DNA from: an uncultured Clostridia bacterium
GTDB taxonomy: Bacteria > Bacillota > Clostridia > Christensenellales > UBA1242
Length of the DNA: 64,000 nucleotides
Assembly (NCBI GenBank): GCA_947062475.1
Contig: CAMSQA010000006.1
Coordinates: 1-64,000 of the forward strand
Direction: 5' to 3'
Part shown: positions 51,232-60,845 of the stretch, one piece after another
Position numbering within the stretch: the stretch's first letter is position 1
How the letters are laid out: every line of letters starts with the position of its first letter
The notes under the pieces: generated by a model
What the model saw: the letters and a program-made list of their open reading frames with translations, nothing else
Told to the model about the DNA's origin: nothing
The model's database searches: none
Translations under genes and position numbers: made by a program

Positions 51232-52602
51232 TTAGTTTCTTTCAAACTCTTCTTGAAGATTTCTTCTCTTTTTCGTAAGTTCGCGATAAGATTTTTTGAT
51301 TGGCTTATTCATATTTAGTTGTTGGCTAAATTTTTTATATAAATTGATATTGTCATTTTCAAGTTCTATAAAAGTTCCAAGATTTTCAACTTCATCAATT
51401 CTTAATATTTTACCATCTAAAAGGTAGGTGGTTCTTGTCTTTTCGACTATGTCAGAGGCTAAAAAGCCACCATTTTTAAAATATGACATCATTTTGTCAC
51501 TTTGCCTATTTTCTTTTGAAAAAGAAGTTAAATCATAGCTTTCAATTTTTCTTGAAAAATTGCTATCTTGAAATTTGAATGTGAGTTTTGTGATTAGGTT
51601 GTCTATTTCTCTTAAAGAAATTGAAAGATTGAAAGGTGCTTCATTGTTTTTATTTTCTAAATAATAATCTTTTTGTTTGCAAACATCAATTTTTTTAGCT
51701 CCAAGTGAGTTTAAATTATTGTGAACAGCATTGGTAGAAGAAAATTTCACCTGTTTTTGAGAATTTTTAGCATTCACTTCTTTTTCTGTGAGGCTGGTGT
51801 TTAAAATATATTTTGCATTATTCAAGGTTGGCAGTATAAACTTGGCATAAGCAGGCATGATAACATCCAAAAATGATATCAATATTAATTCTGGGGTAAG
51901 CTTGCTTCTTTGCTGTAAGATATCACGATTAAGTCTGCGAGAGAGCAAAGTATTAGGGTCACAATCAATGGCGGCTGTGACATAATCGATGTCTTGCAAC
52001 TTTGATAACAACTCATCTCTTAAAGCATATAGACCTTCGACGATAAGCAAATCATAATCTTTGCTATTGATTTCTATAGATTTATCGATTTCACTGCTGT
52101 GAAAACTATATTGAGGAAGGGTGGTTATCTCTTTATTTAATATAGATTTAATTTTGCTTGCAAGTAAATCAAAGTCGATTGCAAAAGGTTCATCAAAATT
52201 CATGTTTGCAAACTGATATAAAATCTCATCTATAAATTTATCTTGGTCTACGACAGGAATGTAAGGAGAAATTAATTTTTTAAAATTATCGATTTGTTCT
52301 CCTTTCAATTTTTCCTGCAAAGGGAAGCTTAATGTAATTTGTTTTAAAATAATAGAGATTTCATTTGTGAAATTTTTATATTTAATAAAAGGTTCTTTTT
52401 GAATAGTCTTTTCAACAGCAATCTTTGCAACACCTTTATAAAAATTATCAGCAGACACTAATAAAACACCATTGTTTTTTGATAAATATCCTGTAAGACG
52501 TTCGCTATTAAAACTTTTACCTGAACTGCTTGCACCAGCAATTAAAATTAAATTTTTTCCTTTTTGAACCTCTTTTTCAATCGCTTCCATCCATTTTTTC
52601 AT
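51232..52602 (-). CDS. uridine-kinase-like P-loop kinase fused to CYTH-like domain
   Basis: AGASSSGKSF Walker A; C-terminal EKTRTTYLLDGKILRIDEVENLGTFIELE is CYTH-like. Confidence 0.65.
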   Translation of the reverse strand: MKKWMEAIEKEVQKGKNLILIAGASSSGKSFNSERLTGYLSKNNGVLLVSADNFYKGVAKIAVEKTIQKEPFIKYKNFTNEISIILKQITLSFPLQEKLKGEQIDNFKKLISPYIPVVDQDKFIDEILYQFANMNFDEPFAIDFDLLASKIKSILNKEITTLPQYSFHSSEIDKSIEINSKDYDLLIVEGLYALRDELLSKLQDIDYVTAAIDCDPNTLLSRRLNRDILQQRSKLTPELILISFLDVIMPAYAKFILPTLNNAKYILNTSLTEKEVNAKNSQKQVKFSSTNAVHNNLNSLGAKKIDVCKQKDYYLENKNNEAPFNLSISLREIDNLITKLTFKFQDSNFSRKIESYDLTSFSKENRQSDKMMSYFKNGGFLASDIVEKTRTTYLLDGKILRIDEVENLGTFIELENDNINLYKKFSQQLNMNKPIKKSYRELTKKRRNLQEEFERN

Positions 52603-52734
52603 GATAAACCTCTTAAATTAATTTATATAAAAATAATATTACAAAATTAGCAAAATGTCAAGATTAAAAAGAATAAGCAAAATTAAATAGGATAATTTCA
52701 TTGAAATTATTAAATGATGTGATATAATAGGCTT

Positions 52735-53244
52735 ATGAAATTAGTTTGGAAAAACTCATCTCTCCAAGAAAATAATTTGGTTATGGAATGGCTGTCAGCA
52801 GATGATAGACAAATGCTTTGCATGAAAGATAAAGATTGGAATGATACTGCAAAAGATATTGAAGAATGTTTGAGATATGCTGATTATGGTCAATTTAAAA
52901 ATCTTATTGGATATCTTGATGCTAAGCCTGCAGTAGCTGTTATGCTTGGAGTTGAAAATTCTGGTGAGGTATTACATATTTACAACATTGCAGTAAATCC
53001 TTCTCAAAGAAAAAAGGGAATTGCATATAAGGCAGTAAAGGAAATATTGCAAAATCCCGAAAAATTTGATTTGAGAAAAACTTATCATATTATCAAGGCT
53101 TCAATATTGCCTGAAAATAAAGCAAGTTTAAAATTGTTCAACAAAGCAGGACTTTCAAATTTGATAAATGAGGATGAATATATTGTTGCAAGCAAAGATC
53201 TTCGCTTGCAGGAAAAATATGATTATGATGAATTTACTATTTGA
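52735..53244 (+). CDS. GNAT family N-acetyltransferase
   Basis: IYNIAVNPSQRKKGIAYKAVKEIL. Confidence 0.8.
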   Translation: MKLVWKNSSLQENNLVMEWLSADDRQMLCMKDKDWNDTAKDIEECLRYADYGQFKNLIGYLDAKPAVAVMLGVENSGEVLHIYNIAVNPSQRKKGIAYKAVKEILQNPEKFDLRKTYHIIKASILPENKASLKLFNKAGLSNLINEDEYIVASKDLRLQEKYDYDEFTI

Positions 53245-53389
53245 TTTAAAAAAAACTAAAAAACGCATCCGAAAATAATGGTGCTTTTTCTGTGAATAAT
53301 CTCAATTTTAAAAAATAATTAATAAGAATTTTGTCAAAAGAGATTTAATATAAATGATATATGATATAATCAAATTAATGATTGGTGAT

Positions 53390-53480
53390 AAAAAAAGAGA
53401 AAACTTAAAAAAGTTTTCTCCTTTTCCCGCCAATGCAGTAATGATTAGAATACATTTATTTGAACTCGTTATGTTATTCC
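53390..53480 (-). ncRNA. tracrRNA
   Basis: 5'-GGAAUAACAUAACGAGUUCAAAU.. anti-repeat pairs with repeat 5' part (6-bp lower stem, GA/GAGU bulge, 12-bp upper stem); terminator GAGAAAACTT-TTTT-AAGTTTTCTC-T7. Confidence 0.85.
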
Positions 53481-53486
53481 ATAGAT

Positions 53487-53515
53487 AATATAACAGATTT
53501 TTACAAAGGAGTCAA
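53487..53515 (-). promoter_or_regulatory. tracrRNA promoter
   Basis: Minus strand TTGACT(53510-53515)-N17-TATATT(53487-53492). Confidence 0.8.
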
Positions 53516-53520
53516 GGGAA

Positions 53521-56500
53521 ATGACAAAATTTTTTTTAGGTTTAGATATAGGGACAAATAGTTGCGGATGGGCTGTGACAGACGAAAATTATAATTTACT
53601 TCGTCGCAAAGGAAAAGATTTGTGGGGAGTGAGACTTTTTGAAGGCGCAAAAGCTGCACAAGAAAGACGTGAAATTAGGACTAATAGACGTCGCCATGAT
53701 AGAAAAAAATTGGAATTATCTTGGGTGAGAGATATCTTTGCAGATGAGATTGCAAAAGTTGACAAAGATTTTCTCACAAGGGTGAAATATAGCAACTTGT
53801 GGTTGGAAGACAAAATGAAAATGTCAAGTTCTTTAAAAAGCAAGGACTCGCTTTTTCATGGAGAAATTGATGGCAAGATTTGGACTGATAGCGATTATTA
53901 TGAAAAATATCCAACAATTTATCATCTCAGAAAAGAGTTAATAGAAAGTCCTGCAAAGGACATCAGATTGCTATATTTGGCAGTTCATAATATAATAAAA
54001 CATCGTGGTCATTTTTTATATGGGGGCAATTTTGGAGAAAATATAAATTTTCTTTCCACTTTCAATGATCTGCTTAGTGATTATGCAAATTTTTTAGACC
54101 AAGAAGATGGATTAATCGAGACAAAATTCTTGTCAGAAAACGAAGTTGAAGAAATTTTAAAATGTATTAAAAGCAAGAGTGGTGTGAGAGCTACAAAACT
54201 CAAATTTAATGAAATTTTTGATGCGAAAACCAAGTCGGAAAAAGCTTTGGTTGGTGCATTTGTAGATGGAAATCTTAATCTTGAATATTTGTTTGATGAG
54301 GAAATAGAGGAAGGAAAATTAAATTTTAAAGATGAAGCTGTTGAAGATATATTGGAAGAACTTAGTGGCGTTTTGTCAGAGCAGCAATTATCATTGATAT
54401 ATAAAATACAAGAGATATATTCGACTATTCAGTTGAAAATAATTCTTTCTGACCATGATTATATCTGTCAAGCAATGGTCGAAAGTTATGAAGAACATGA
54501 AAGACAACTGCAAAAATTTAAAAAATTTATTAAAAAATATTATCAAGATGAATACAACAATATCTTTAGAAATCCTAGAGATGGAAAAGATTCAGATAAA
54601 AATGTAGGCTATACTCAATATGTAAACTGCAATTTGACAAATGGCAAAAAACAGGTGGTTGACTTAAACGTCCCAAGCAGAGCGAAGGAAGAGTTTTATA
54701 AATATGTGAAAAAAATACTTTCAAATACCCCAAAAAACTTGCAAGATGATCAAATGAAAGAGAAATTTGAAGGAGAAAAAGATTATTTTCTTTCACTGAT
54801 TCAAGAAGATAGATTTTTGCCAAAACAAAGATCAAAAGCAAACAGTGTTTTTCCAAATAAGCTATATGAAAAAGAACTTAAAAAAATTCTTTCAATGAGT
54901 GCTGAAAAATTTACATTTTTAAATGAAATCGACACTTCTTGTGGTCTTTCAAATTCACAAAAGCTGATGCAGATTTTATCTTTCAGAGTGCCATATTTTG
55001 TGGGGCCAATAGGGCAAAATTTAGAAGGACAGTTGCATGGATGGGCAGAAAAAATTTCAAATATCGACTATAAACCATGGACATTAAGTAAAATTGTCGA
55101 TTTTGATAATGCTGAAGATGCTTTTATTAGAAGAATGACAAACAAGTGTTCATATTTAAAAGATAAAGACGTTTTGCCAAAAAATTCAATTCTTTATTCA
55201 AAATTTAGAGTTTTAAACGAACTTAACAAACTTAGAATAAATGGCAATCAAATTTCTGTAGACCTCAAGAAAAAACTTTTTGAAGAACTTTTTTGTCTTT
55301 TGCCAAAGGTATCAACTAAAGACGTTAAAAAATTTTTGATACGAGAGGGATTATTTTCTATAAATGAAATCAATGATATCGAGCTTAGCGGCGTTGATAA
55401 AGAATTTGCAAATAATTTTTCAAGTTATACAAAACTTGCAAATCATTCAATTTTTGGCAATGAATTTGTAGATAAGCATATTCAAGAGCTAGAAAAAATT
55501 ATCAAATATCATACAATAATTTCAGATAAAAACAGATTAGATAAAAGAATTAGAAGAGAATTTTCTGAAATTTTCACTGATGAGCAATTTAAATATCTAA
55601 AAGGTTTAAATTTCAAAGACTGGGGAGCATTATCATATGAATTTTTGTGTGGAATAAAGTTTGCAAATAGAGAAACAGGCGAAATTACTACAATTATAGA
55701 TGAAATGTGGGAAACAAATCAAAATCTTCAAGAAATTTTAAACAATGGCAAGTATACAATCTCAGAAAAGTTATTTAAAAGCAATGAGAAGTCATTAAAA
55801 AATATAATTTATGATGATGTGGAAGCACTTTATTGTTCGCCTGCTGTAAAAAGAGGGGTGTGGCAAGCTATAAAACTTATAAAAGAAATAGTTTCAGTTA
55901 TGGGGGACATGCCTGAAAAAGTGTTTGTTGAAGTGACACGTGAAAATGGAGAAAAAGGTGAGTTAGGACGCAAAAGTCCTCGAAAAAGCAAACTTGAAAA
56001 TTTGTATAATTCTAAAACTTTTAAAAAGAATGTTTTCATTTCTTCACAAGAAATTGCAAGTTTGTTGGAAGAATTAAACAAAAAAGATGTCACAAATTTG
56101 AGAAGCGAAAAATTGTATCTCTATTTCTTACAAGCGGGTAAATGCATGTATTGTGGAGAACCTATTGACTTAAATGATATCTATAATGACAATCTATATG
56201 ATGTCGATCATATAATTCCTCAAGCAATCATAAAGGATGACAGCATAGACAACAAAGTTCTTGTAAAAAGAAAACTCAATGCTGATAAATCTAAAATATA
56301 TCCTTTGCCTTATGAAATTATTGCAAAACAAAAGAGTTTTTGGAAGACATTGCTTGATAATGGCTTTATTTCTAAAGAAAAATATGCGAGACTTATCAGA
56401 ACTTCTCCGCTTACAGAGGATGACTTAGGTCAGTTTATTGCTCGTCAACTTGTTGAAACAAACCAAACTGCAAAAGCTGTAATTGACTTTTTGAAAGCAT

Positions 56501-57786
56501 GTATGGATGACCCACGCAGGGTGATTTACAGCAAGGCTAAACTGGTGTCAAATTTTAGACAGATTTTTTCCATAATAAAATGTAGAGATATAAATAACCT
56601 TCACCATGCTCAAGATGCATATCTTAATATCGTCGTAGGAAATATTATAAATACAAAATTTACTGATGATCCTCGCAATTTTTATAAACAAAAAGAAAAA
56701 CAAATTTCGTCATGCAATGAGAATATAGAAAGAAAAGAAGAAGGCTCAAATATTAAAAATATATTTACAGGCACTGTTTTTTCGCATTTGACACACAAAC
56801 CTGTTTGGAGTGCGGCAAGAGATATAACAAAAGTTAAAAAAGTATGTATGAAAACCAGTCCGATAATTTCAAAAATGAGTTTTTCAAATCTTAATGGTGC
56901 TTTTTATAAAGAGACAGTTCATAAAAGCAACAAGAATAATCAAAAGACTGAGGCTTCTATTTCTCTAAAAAGTGATTTGAATAATCCATTGAAGGATACC
57001 CAAAAATATGGCGGATTTAATGACCTAAAAAATGCATATTTTATGCTTGTTGAAGGAAAAAACAAGAAGGGGCAAATTATTAGGACAATCGAAGCTGTTC
57101 CTATAATGGTTTATGTTAAATATGTTGGCAAGCCAAACTTTAAAGAGAATATTCTTGAATATATATCAAAGGCAGGAAACCTTAGTGAAACAAAAATTTT
57201 GATAGACAAAATAAATGTTCAATCCACTTTTTTGATTGGCAATGGAAGATATTTGTTGGGTGGAAAGTCTGATAACACTCTTACGTTACATAATGCAAAT
57301 CAAATGTTTCTCGATGATGAAAGCTGTAAATACATTAAGACAATTTCGAAATATTTTAAACACATAGATGACAAAACAGATTCAGCTCTTGTCCAAAATG
57401 ATGAAAAAATAATTGTCTCTCCTGCTTCAAAAGAGAAAAATAAAGAGATAACCTTGACAAAGAATGAAAACTTAAGACTTTATGAAAAGATTTTAGACCG
57501 ATTGTCTAGCAAACAATATGAAAGTATGCAGCTTGGCTCAGTTTTTCTTCCTAAACTTAAAGCGAAAAAAGAAATGTTTATCTCATTAAAAGTTCAAGAT
57601 CAAGTGCAGGTTCTTCATGAAATCATAAAACGCTGTTCGACTGGTCCATCTTATGCCGATTTATCAAAGTTGAATGATGGAAAAATGGTAGGAAAGATTG
57701 CCATCAATAAAAATGTTACAGGAAAAAATATAGTATTGATTAAAAATTCGGTTTCAGGCTTATTCGAACAAAGGATTAAATTATAA
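53521..57786 (+). CDS. cas9: type II-A CRISPR endonuclease Cas9 (1421 aa)
   Basis: RuvC-I LGLDIGTNSCGWAV; bridge helix RREIRTNRRRHDRKK; HNH CMYCGEPI..DVDHIIPQAI; RuvC-III HHAQDAYLN. Confidence 0.98.
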   Translation: MTKFFLGLDIGTNSCGWAVTDENYNLLRRKGKDLWGVRLFEGAKAAQERREIRTNRRRHDRKKLELSWVRDIFADEIAKVDKDFLTRVKYSNLWLEDKMKMSSSLKSKDSLFHGEIDGKIWTDSDYYEKYPTIYHLRKELIESPAKDIRLLYLAVHNIIKHRGHFLYGGNFGENINFLSTFNDLLSDYANFLDQEDGLIETKFLSENEVEEILKCIKSKSGVRATKLKFNEIFDAKTKSEKALVGAFVDGNLNLEYLFDEEIEEGKLNFKDEAVEDILEELSGVLSEQQLSLIYKIQEIYSTIQLKIILSDHDYICQAMVESYEEHERQLQKFKKFIKKYYQDEYNNIFRNPRDGKDSDKNVGYTQYVNCNLTNGKKQVVDLNVPSRAKEEFYKYVKKILSNTPKNLQDDQMKEKFEGEKDYFLSLIQEDRFLPKQRSKANSVFPNKLYEKELKKILSMSAEKFTFLNEIDTSCGLSNSQKLMQILSFRVPYFVGPIGQNLEGQLHGWAEKISNIDYKPWTLSKIVDFDNAEDAFIRRMTNKCSYLKDKDVLPKNSILYSKFRVLNELNKLRINGNQISVDLKKKLFEELFCLLPKVSTKDVKKFLIREGLFSINEINDIELSGVDKEFANNFSSYTKLANHSIFGNEFVDKHIQELEKIIKYHTIISDKNRLDKRIRREFSEIFTDEQFKYLKGLNFKDWGALSYEFLCGIKFANRETGEITTIIDEMWETNQNLQEILNNGKYTISEKLFKSNEKSLKNIIYDDVEALYCSPAVKRGVWQAIKLIKEIVSVMGDMPEKVFVEVTRENGEKGELGRKSPRKSKLENLYNSKTFKKNVFISSQEIASLLEELNKKDVTNLRSEKLYLYFLQAGKCMYCGEPIDLNDIYNDNLYDVDHIIPQAIIKDDSIDNKVLVKRKLNADKSKIYPLPYEIIAKQKSFWKTLLDNGFISKEKYARLIRTSPLTEDDLGQFIARQLVETNQTAKAVIDFLKACMDDPRRVIYSKAKLVSNFRQIFSIIKCRDINNLHHAQDAYLNIVVGNIINTKFTDDPRNFYKQKEKQISSCNENIERKEEGSNIKNIFTGTVFSHLTHKPVWSAARDITKVKKVCMKTSPIISKMSFSNLNGAFYKETVHKSNKNNQKTEASISLKSDLNNPLKDTQKYGGFNDLKNAYFMLVEGKNKKGQIIRTIEAVPIMVYVKYVGKPNFKENILEYISKAGNLSETKILIDKINVQSTFLIGNGRYLLGGKSDNTLTLHNANQMFLDDESCKYIKTISKYFKHIDDKTDSALVQNDEKIIVSPASKEKNKEITLTKNENLRLYEKILDRLSSKQYESMQLGSVFLPKLKAKKEMFISLKVQDQVQVLHEIIKRCSTGPSYADLSKLNDGKMVGKIAINKNVTGKNIVLIKNSVSGLFEQRIKL

Positions 57787-58646
57787 TGAGTTTTAGGACG
57801 ATTGTGATAAAGGAGCGAGCAAAATTGGATTTAAAACTAAATTATTTAGTTTGCAGAAATGACAAAGAGGTCAAGGTCTATATTCCTGAAATATCTCAAC
57901 TTATCTTAGAATCGACAGGAATTTCTTTGACCTGTGCGCTTATAAGTGAACTAGTAAAAAACAATGTAAAAATAGTCTTTTGTGATCAAAAACACAATCC
58001 TGAAAGTGAAATATTGCCATATTATGGAAATTATCAAACTGCGAAAAGATTGAGAGATCAAATCGCATGGCCTTTAGAGGCTAAAGCAAATGCTTGGTCA
58101 GAAATAATTAAAAATAAAATTTATCAACAAGCTAAGTTATTAAAAGAACTTAAATTTACAAAAGAATGCGAGATGCTTGAAAAATATTATAATCAAGTTA
58201 TGCTTAATGATTCCACAAATAGGGAGGGACATTCGGCAAAAGTATATTTTAATGCTTTATTTGGCATGGATTTCTCTCGAAGAGAGGGCGAAAAATTTAA
58301 TGCTGCATTAAATTATGGTTATGCGATTATACTTTCTTGTTTTAATAGAGAAATTGTCAAAAGCGGATATCTTACTCAACTTGGAATTTGGCATAAAAAT
58401 GAGTTTAATGATTTTAATCTTGCAAGTGATTTTATGGAACCTTTTAGAATCTTGATTGATAGAATTGTTGTGAATCTCAACGAAGAAGAGGATTTTAGAA
58501 GTCAAATTTTGGAAATTTTTAATATTCAAGTAAAAATCAAGGGAAAAAGTTATTATTTAGAAAAAGCAATCTCAGTTTATTGCAAAAGTCTCTTTGATCG
58601 CTTAAATAATAATGACAATGGTGAAATTTTGTTTTATGAGATGTAG
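57786..58646 (+). CDS. cas1: type II CRISPR integrase Cas1
   Basis: ISLTCALISELVKNNVKIVFCD..NREGHSAKVYFNALFG; TAATG overlap with cas9. Confidence 0.95.
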   Translation: MSFRTIVIKERAKLDLKLNYLVCRNDKEVKVYIPEISQLILESTGISLTCALISELVKNNVKIVFCDQKHNPESEILPYYGNYQTAKRLRDQIAWPLEAKANAWSEIIKNKIYQQAKLLKELKFTKECEMLEKYYNQVMLNDSTNREGHSAKVYFNALFGMDFSRREGEKFNAALNYGYAIILSCFNREIVKSGYLTQLGIWHKNEFNDFNLASDFMEPFRILIDRIVVNLNEEEDFRSQILEIFNIQVKIKGKSYYLEKAISVYCKSLFDRLNNNDNGEILFYEM

Positions 58647-58650
58647 AGTT

Positions 58651-58956
58651 ATGAGAATGTTAGTGTTTTTTGATTTGCCCATGCTTACCAAAGCAAATTT
58701 AAGTGAGTATAGAAATTTTAGAAGTTTTTTACTTAAAAGTGGTTTTATTATGATGCAAAAGTCGGTATATTCAAAACTGGTTTTAAACAATAATTCAACC
58801 AAATTATTACGCACACAAGTAGTAAAAAATTTACCTAAATATGGTCTTGTTCAATTACTGACTGTTACTGAAAAACAGTTTGCAGAAATTGAATATCTTG
58901 TGGGGCAATCAAACAGCAAGGTTCTTTCAAGTATCGATAGGGTGGTGAAATTATGA
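58651..58956 (+). CDS. cas2: CRISPR-associated Cas2
   Basis: MRMLVFFDLPMLTKANLSEYRNFRSFLLKSGFIMMQKSVYSKLV; start at 58651. Confidence 0.95.
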   Translation: MRMLVFFDLPMLTKANLSEYRNFRSFLLKSGFIMMQKSVYSKLVLNNNSTKLLRTQVVKNLPKYGLVQLLTVTEKQFAEIEYLVGQSNSKVLSSIDRVVKL

Positions 58957-59615
58957 AAATGGTGCATCCTAATGTGGATTATTGTTTTGATTTTCAAAAA
59001 AATTACTTTTATTCATTTGTTATAGAAAATGCCGATGAATATTTTAAACTGACTAAACAACTTATTTCTCAATCGGAAGGTGGTGATGGGGAATGGGTGT
59101 TGTCGGAAATTCTTCCTATTGACTTAACAAAAAATACATTGGTTTTATTTGATTTTTATAATATATCTTGTAATAATAAAAAGATGGAAAGCTTATTGAA
59201 AAATAGAATTTTGAATTTATCTTCCCAAATTGATATAAGTGAAATTCTTACAAGAATAAATAAAGATTTTATAGATTTGACAGAATTAATAATATCAAAT
59301 TTAGATTTTAGTGTTGACGCAAATAATGAAATTACCTTTGAAATCTTATTAAAAATTATCAAATTTAATTTCAATGAAGAAAAAACTTTGCTTGAAAAGA
59401 TTATTAGTTTTATTGGTGTTTATTGTCAGTTAGTTCCTATAAAACTGGTTGTTCTTATAGGTTTAGGTGCTGTTTTAAATGCGAAGGATATAGAAAAACT
59501 TATAAAAGAAATTGATTATAAAGATATAAAAATTATGTTTATTGACAGTTGTGATAATGAAATTTGTCATAAAGAAAATAAAATAATAATTGATAAAGAT
59601 TTGTGTTTAATATAA
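58953..59615 (+). CDS. csn2: type II-A adaptation protein Csn2
   Basis: Position, size 220 aa, ATGA overlap with cas2, Csn2-like content. Confidence 0.85.
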   Translation: MKMVHPNVDYCFDFQKNYFYSFVIENADEYFKLTKQLISQSEGGDGEWVLSEILPIDLTKNTLVLFDFYNISCNNKKMESLLKNRILNLSSQIDISEILTRINKDFIDLTELIISNLDFSVDANNEITFEILLKIIKFNFNEEKTLLEKIISFIGVYCQLVPIKLVVLIGLGAVLNAKDIEKLIKEIDYKDIKIMFIDSCDNEICHKENKIIIDKDLCLI

Positions 59616-59629: not shown

Positions 59630-59688
59630 ATTTTTGAAAGGTGATGTTTAGAATAAATGCGGTGGCATGACATATTTTCAAAATTGAG

Positions 59689-60648
59689 GTTTGAGAGTTA
59701 TGTTATTCTAGACATCACTAAAATAATCTCCTTTTATTTACAAGTATAGTATAAGTTTGAGAGTTATGTTATTCTAGACATCACTAAAATATTATTCTTG
59801 TTTCAAAAGGCTATGCTGATGTTTGAGAGTTATGTTATTCTAGACATCACTAAAATGTCAGTGAAGGTCATTGATGATGTTCCGCTGTTTGAGAGTTATG
59901 TTATTCTAGACATCACTAAAATCAGCTTTGACGAATAAATGTATAACACATTGTTTGAGAGTTATGTTATTCTAGACATCACTAAAATATGTTCGTTTGA
60001 TAATATTCTTATTATTCTGTTTGAGAGTTATGTTATTCTAGACATCACTAAAACGCAAACAGTGGCTATAGGCGACTATGCAAAGTTTGAGAGTTATGTT
60101 ATTCTAGACATCACTAAAACTTCTCTGCGTCAATTAATAGTTGTTGAGCCGTTTGAGAGTTATGTTATTCTAGACATCACTAAAACAATTGCTCTTTATT
60201 TAAAACAAATGGCTTGGTTTGAGAGTTATGTTATTCTAGACATCACTAAAACTTGATAAATTGTGTGGTTTATTAAACGAAAGTTTGAGAGTTATGTTAT
60301 TCTAGACATCACTAAAACTTGTTCCGAAAGATTTAACTAAATTCATAAGTTTGAGAGTTATGTTATTCTAGACATCACTAAAACAAAACATTCATTTCAT
60401 TCGTGTTATTCTTGGTTTGAGAGTTATGTTATTCTAGACATCACTAAAACTACAATTCCATAAGTTGAACATCTGCATCAGTTTGAGAGTTATGTTATTC
60501 TAGACATCACTAAAACTGATATTGGCGCAATCAATAGCCATCCTATGTTTGAGAGTTATGTTATTCTAGACATCACTAAAACTGTTTGCATAAAGATATT
60601 AGCATTACAAGTGTTTGAGAGTTATGTTATTTTAAATATTATTAAAAT
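59689..60648 (+). CRISPR. type II-A CRISPR array, 36-bp repeats, 30-bp spacers, strict 66-bp period
   Basis: Repeat GTTTGAGAGTTATGTTATTCTAGACATCACTAAAAY at 59689, 59755, 59821 ... 60547 (14 intact) plus degenerate 15th at 60613. Confidence 0.99.
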
Positions 60649-60678
60649 AAATGTCAATATCATCGCGTCCGTGTTGTT

Positions 60679-60845
60679 GTTTGAAAGTTATGTTTTTCTG
60701 AACTTCACTTGATCTTACTAGATTGATTTGCATACCGTTTCTCTTGCTTGAGTGTTATTTTATTCTTTATTATAATAAGACATGTCAATTACAAAGTCTT
60801 TAATGGTTGATTTGAAAGTTTTGTTATTCTTAATAAATCATTGAT
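60679..60845 (+). repeat. decayed CRISPR repeats (trailer end)
   Basis: Degenerate repeat-like segments at about 60679, 60746 and 60810, close to the 66-bp register. Confidence 0.75.

Follow-up and report, generated by a model that had tools for sequence, protein, structure and literature searches.

Probable transcription of cas9 across, and antisense to, the tracrRNA gene in a clostridial type II-A CRISPR-Cas locus

In the type II-A CRISPR-Cas locus described here, from an uncultured gut bacterium, transcription of cas9 most likely runs through the entire tracrRNA gene, with a predicted 5' leader antisense to the tracrRNA. Sequence comparisons strongly suggest that the responsible cas9 promoter lies beyond the tracrRNA 3' end. 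The analysis establishes the tracrRNA, its promoter, the overlap of the two genes and the conservation of this overlap. Judged by sequence, the antisense layout recurs in dozens of related bacteria, and tracrRNA and cas9 probably restrain each other.

Organization of the CRISPR-Cas locus

The window (the whole stretch of 64,000 nucleotides that was analysed) belongs to a genome of about 1.05 Mb and contains a complete type II-A CRISPR-Cas locus, consisting of four cas genes, a repeat array and a tracrRNA (Table 1). Matches to TIGR01865, TIGR03639, TIGR01573 and TIGR01866 were all over cut-off and identified cas9, cas1, cas2 and csn2, respectively, in one cluster. A relative of the window's Cas9 is encoded in a Clostridia MAG from water buffalo cecum. 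Elsewhere in the window, the minus strand of 51232-52602 encodes a single protein with a uridine kinase match in its N-terminal part and a CyaB/CYTH match in its C-terminal part, an apparent fusion.

Table 1. Features of the cas9-tracrRNA region and the CRISPR-Cas locus in the window
Feature	Coordinates	Strand	Remarks
GNAT gene	ends 53244		Co-directional with cas9; end 277 bp upstream of cas9
Probable cas9 promoter	53362..53370	+	Extended -10 TGATATAAT; predicted start about 53377
Predicted cas9 5' leader	53377..53520	+	Antisense to entire tracrRNA; based on sequence and upstream-promoter conservation
tracrRNA	53385..53480	-	Anti-repeat (53480-53457), nexus-like hairpin, terminator hairpin with U-run
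tracrRNA terminator hairpin	53392..53425	-	Strong U-run only in tracrRNA direction
Rival cas9 promoter	53460..53489	+	TTGAAC-18-GATAAT; judged not functional, not conserved in relatives
tracrRNA promoter	53487..53515	-	-35 TTGACT (53515-53510), 17 bp, TG-extended -10 TATATT (53492-53487)
cas9 Shine-Dalgarno segment	53505..53520	+	AAAGGAGTCAAGGGAA; GTCAA shared with tracrRNA -35
cas9	53521..57786	+	1421 aa; TIGR01865, profile match 833 bits
cas1, cas2, csn2 (type II-A)	57786..59615	+	Profile matches
CRISPR array	59689..60845	+	36-nt repeats, about 18 units, last ones degenerate

For comparison, 53 cas9 loci were assembled. Eight belong to the window's genus, 26 to further families of its order and 17 to the remainder of the class; of the last two, one is from another class and one from Listeria monocytogenes. 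Among the outgroups considered (Listeria, Nicoliella and Lactobacillus), a clear antisense tracrRNA was found in Listeria only.

Identity of the tracrRNA

The predicted tracrRNA of the window forms a duplex of -20 to -21 kcal/mol with the array repeat, with the usual bulge present, and its fold has a z-score of -3.8. In ten systems for which both repeat and tracrRNA were in hand, cognate pairing tracked divergence: four loci (L003, L013, L017 and L011) each strongly preferred their own repeat/tracrRNA partner, as in L003, whose tracrRNA reached -45.5 with its own repeat versus at most -18.6 with others. This preference for the cognate repeat in diverged systems, together with fold z-scores below -2 relative to shuffled sequence for 44 of the 53 tracrRNAs, supports their identification. 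A search of the tracrRNA segment against Rfam, by gathering thresholds and by E-values, returned chance hits only and no match to a tracrRNA family. RNAalifold likewise predicted zero pairs from a 22-sequence tracrRNA alignment, in which the terminators align poorly. Structure was judged by per-sequence folding and by repeat/anti-repeat pairing rather than from this alignment; when folded one by one, the terminator stems vary in sequence across loci yet preserve pairing.

The tracrRNA promoter on the cas9 ribosome-binding segment

The minus-strand promoter TTGACT-17-TATATT is near consensus, and exact matches to TTGACT-N17-TATATT occur twice in the window versus 0.05 expected. Its -35 hexamer, at positions -11 to -6 relative to the cas9 ATG, sits in the spacer that separates the Shine-Dalgarno core from the start codon. 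It covers this spacer because it is complementary to AGTCAA within AAAGGAGTCAAGGGAAATG, which forms the cas9 ribosome-binding segment. An earlier note on this DNA, which had placed the hexamer within the cas9 Shine-Dalgarno region and the tracrRNA 5' end about 40 bp from the cas9 ATG, is thereby borne out on both points, the 5' end being predicted at 53480-53481 and the ATG starting at 53521.

A tracrRNA promoter was present in all 53 loci, with a -35/-10 spacing of 17 in 48 of them, and the -35 lay at most 25 nt from the cas9 start in 41. It fell between the Shine-Dalgarno sequence and the start codon, or touched the start codon, in 24 loci, including all eight congeneric loci, across which GTCAA is invariant. 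The hexamer was found just upstream of the Shine-Dalgarno sequence in 17 further loci and farther off in 12, its position varying from -5 to -55 in most loci. In 52/53 loci, a distance of 35 to 85 nt separated the predicted tracrRNA start from the cas9 start downstream of it. As far as sequence can tell, overlap of the Shine-Dalgarno region with the -35 is the rule in the window's genus, and close abutment of tracrRNA and cas9 is the wider rule. The sole exception is locus L072, where a gap of about 138 nt between tracrRNA and cas9 leaves room for a separate promoter. With its tracrRNA -35 about 108 nt from the ATG and a TGATTATAAT site in the gap, this locus is an instance of a streptococcus-like layout in the class. 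A separate peculiarity was noted in a congener (L004/L010; G027:C6:30885-35077), whose cas9 is spread over two frames with one in-frame TGA; its tracrRNA and promoter layout is intact, and the 18 kb examined showed no array.

Probable transcription of cas9 across the tracrRNA gene

Promoters were scanned with a sigma-A-type weight matrix against dinucleotide shuffles in the 140 bp upstream of the tracrRNA terminator. Of 50 loci, 33 had a cas9-directed promoter beyond the tracrRNA 3' end at P < 0.05 (Fisher 2e-27), versus 4 on the opposite strand of the same sequence (Fisher 0.25); as the loci are related and not independent, these combined P values overstate independence, and it is the contrast between strands and regions that matters. 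The upstream cas9-directed promoter was not significant by the weight matrix in the other 17 loci. The region from the anti-repeat to the ATG gave a weak promoter signal (9/50 loci), and no convincing promoter was found between tracrRNA and cas9 in the loci examined. Enrichment upstream, coupled with the lack of a convincing promoter in between, suggests that cas9 is read across the tracrRNA gene. Passage through the tracrRNA terminator is plausible, since the terminator U-run is mostly one-directional (present in the tracrRNA direction in 36/52 loci versus 8/52 in the cas9 direction).

The upstream promoter of the window itself has a poor -35 and is unremarkable by the matrix alone (P = 0.62). 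It gains support because its extended -10, TGATATAAT, is enriched in the genome (110 occurrences versus 23 for the reversed control string) and, where it occurs in the window, is usually found immediately ahead of open reading frames, and because an upstream cas9-directed promoter is conserved in relatives. Transcription from the predicted start would produce a 144-nt leader spanning the whole tracrRNA, in line with the proposal in the earlier note of a 5' untranslated region fully antisense to the tracrRNA. The pseudo-repeat that had been remarked on in this leader (TTTGAACTCGTTATGTTATTC) is not an independent element; it is complementary to the anti-repeat, which explains why it resembles the repeat GTTTGAGAGTTATGTTATTC. 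At 52720-52735 (the GNAT gene), 22164 and 18605, TGATATAAT stands only 6 to 17 nt ahead of an open reading frame start. If translation does not in fact begin at a more internal start codon, mRNAs made from these sites may have little or no leader.

Two other origins of the cas9 mRNA deserve mention. The transcript could start at TTGAAC-18-GATAAT, back to back with the tracrRNA promoter, in which case the two transcripts would not overlap and promoter competition would be their only link. This site matches the consensus at 9/12 positions and outscores the upstream candidate in the window (matrix 9.0 versus 6.8), so TGATATAAT is not quite the "only evident" cas9 promoter, as had been claimed, although comparative conservation and enrichment speak for it and not for its competitor. 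However, the TTGAAC is dictated by the anti-repeat; with TTGAAC held constant, a significant -10 was found in only 5 of 46 loci (Fisher 0.008), and among the congeners a good -10 exists in the window only. We therefore regard this start site as improbable. Very improbable is a supply of cas9 mRNA by read-through from the GNAT gene, even though that gene is co-directional, ends 277 bp upstream and is followed by a weak terminator-like hairpin (-4.8 kcal/mol). A GNAT-cas9 operon is argued against because the GNAT gene is not found beside cas9 in relatives, while the promoter upstream of the tracrRNA recurs.

Proposed mutual regulation of tracrRNA and cas9

With cas9 starting upstream of the tracrRNA gene, the two predicted promoters are oriented towards each other at a distance of about 104 bp, and the transcripts overlap by about 96 nt. 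The tracrRNA promoter scored higher than the cas9 promoter in 44 of 51 loci (median 14.0 versus 11.0; Wilcoxon 3e-8). We consider it somewhat likely that the antisense leader and the facing promoters, with the tracrRNA promoter being the stronger one and seated on the ribosome-binding segment, hold cas9 low. RNA polymerase starting or waiting at the tracrRNA promoter would obstruct polymerase that arrives from the cas9 promoter, or collide with it, such that tracrRNA synthesis would keep cas9 expression low, whereas bursts of cas9 transcription may briefly clear the tracrRNA promoter. Pairing of tracrRNA and leader, probably followed by RNase III cutting, could add a second, weaker layer that leaves the Shine-Dalgarno sequence free. 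We infer the interference, its direction and the RNase III step; a conserved layout does not by itself prove regulation.

Among the three mechanisms offered in the earlier note, transcriptional interference has the strongest support, given that the two promoters converge and that the tracrRNA promoter is closer to consensus in 44/51 loci. Convergent antisense transcription has been shown to lower expression in the systems tested (PMC4731013). The proposed RNA duplex holds in part. Leader and tracrRNA would pair perfectly (-156 kcal/mol for the stretch of leader that was folded); such a duplex is unavoidable if both RNAs coexist, and cutting by RNase III would be expected. Yet the cas9 ribosome-binding site would remain uncovered: in each of the 53 loci, 35 nt or more separate the predicted tracrRNA 5' end from the cas9 start codon, which puts the Shine-Dalgarno sequence outside the duplex and makes its direct masking unlikely. 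Binding of Cas9-tracrRNA to its own mRNA as a guide is also unlikely. In noncanonical crRNAs, an mRNA pairs with the tracrRNA anti-repeat while its upstream part is free to act as guide (PMC8224270). Here complementarity to the leader extends over the full length of the tracrRNA, so that the would-be guide would be paired as well.

It is possible, though on balance unlikely, that the overlap has no appreciable regulatory effect, the layout being neutral packing that is inherited with the Cas9 lineage in a short intergenic space. The layout does follow the Cas9 clade, in agreement with a reported correlation between tracrRNA position and Cas9 phylogeny (PMC3936727), and the -35 slides along the segment rather than being fixed. 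However, facing promoters 104 bp apart normally interfere, convergent antisense transcription cuts expression elsewhere (PMC4731013), and the tracrRNA promoter is consistently the stronger one across loci. Autorepression of the cas9 promoter by Cas9 is a far more remote prospect, whether the natural guide were a long tracrRNA (tracr-L), a crRNA derived from the leader or one of the spacers. Tracr-L acts in this way in S. pyogenes (PMC11417352), but no second minus-strand promoter was found within about 180 bp inside cas9; right of the anti-repeat (53457-53700) there is one minus-strand promoter-like site. No spacer has a seed match of at least 9 nt in the intergenic region, the cas9 promoter included. 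The array leader end does have a 9-nt seed match, at 53301, which we attribute to chance, as it is not conserved in G479 despite an identical leader end. Rather doubtful, too, is a homeostat in which crRNA-free tracrRNA pairs with the cas9 leader and RNase III cuts the duplex, matching Cas9 to the crRNA supply and replacing the streptococcal tracr-L loop in this branch of type II-A systems.

Comparison with known systems

The closest precedent is P2cas of the Streptococcus agalactiae type II-A system, a cas promoter at the tracrRNA 3' end that reads across the tracrRNA into cas9 (PMC12216829). The window resembles it, at the level of sequence, in promoter position and direction, with TGATATAAT (53362-53370) at the tracrRNA 3' end facing cas9; in S. 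agalactiae lineages without P1cas, P2cas is the sole cas promoter (PMC12216829). S. agalactiae differs in its longer gap between tracrRNA and cas9, which holds, now or formerly, P1cas and the tracr-L promoter, and in the control of P2cas by CovR (PMC12216829). In the window, by contrast, the tracrRNA abuts cas9, its -35 lies in the cas9 ribosome-binding site and there is no P1cas-like space. RNA-seq of S. agalactiae NEM316 had previously revealed srn036, an RNA antisense to the tracrRNA 3' end that was suggested to modulate the tracrRNA (PMC4448216). It shares its relative position and antisense orientation with the predicted cas9 leader; however, srn036 is short (about 100 nt), whereas the leader would extend over all of the tracrRNA.

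In S. pyogenes, tracr-L represses the cas promoter (PMC11417352). The two systems have in common a tracrRNA antisense just upstream of cas9 and a link between tracrRNA and cas9 expression (PMC11417352). The S. pyogenes loop requires the long tracrRNA and a Pcas between tracrRNA and cas9, neither of which was found in the window, where that interval is only about 40 bp and its one candidate site is not conserved. The type II-A locus of L. monocytogenes (L083) likewise has an antisense tracrRNA upstream of cas9 and a TGCTATAAT promoter-like site upstream of the tracrRNA, but its tracrRNA -35 (TTGCAT, spacer 16) is weaker and, at -34, more distant from the start codon. A full-text literature search for transcripts overlapping or antisense to tracrRNA, in which subscription journals were mostly outside coverage, returned the S. 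agalactiae paper only. The geometry is thus already known in one species; what is added here is that it appears to be ordinary in a large clostridial branch of type II-A systems, with the tracrRNA set directly against cas9.

The CRISPR array

The first five, leader-proximal repeats (59689-60018) end in AAAAT and the next nine (60019-60600) in AAAAC, as if a mutated first repeat had been copied at each recent acquisition. The last four repeats (60613-60845), with spacers of 31 and 28 nt, are progressively degenerate and mark an old end of the array that is decaying. Immediately ahead of the first repeat, both the window's leader (59659-59688) and those of L043-L054 end in (T/A)TTGAG, resembling ATTTGAG, the leader-anchoring sequence of other II-A systems. 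A protospacer search for PAM inference, with four spacers against IMG/VR and the array against phage genomes, gave zero matches.

Implications for the control of Cas9

Cas9 has to be kept low to avoid self-damage and yet be ready for phage, and what is known of its control comes mostly from streptococci. Among the clostridial type II-A loci studied here, only L072 has room for the streptococcal arrangement; in the others, cas9 would instead be transcribed antisense across the tracrRNA. If this overlap regulates, it would represent a different and widespread way of controlling Cas9, and the distal promoter P2cas of S. agalactiae may then be an older layout and not an oddity.
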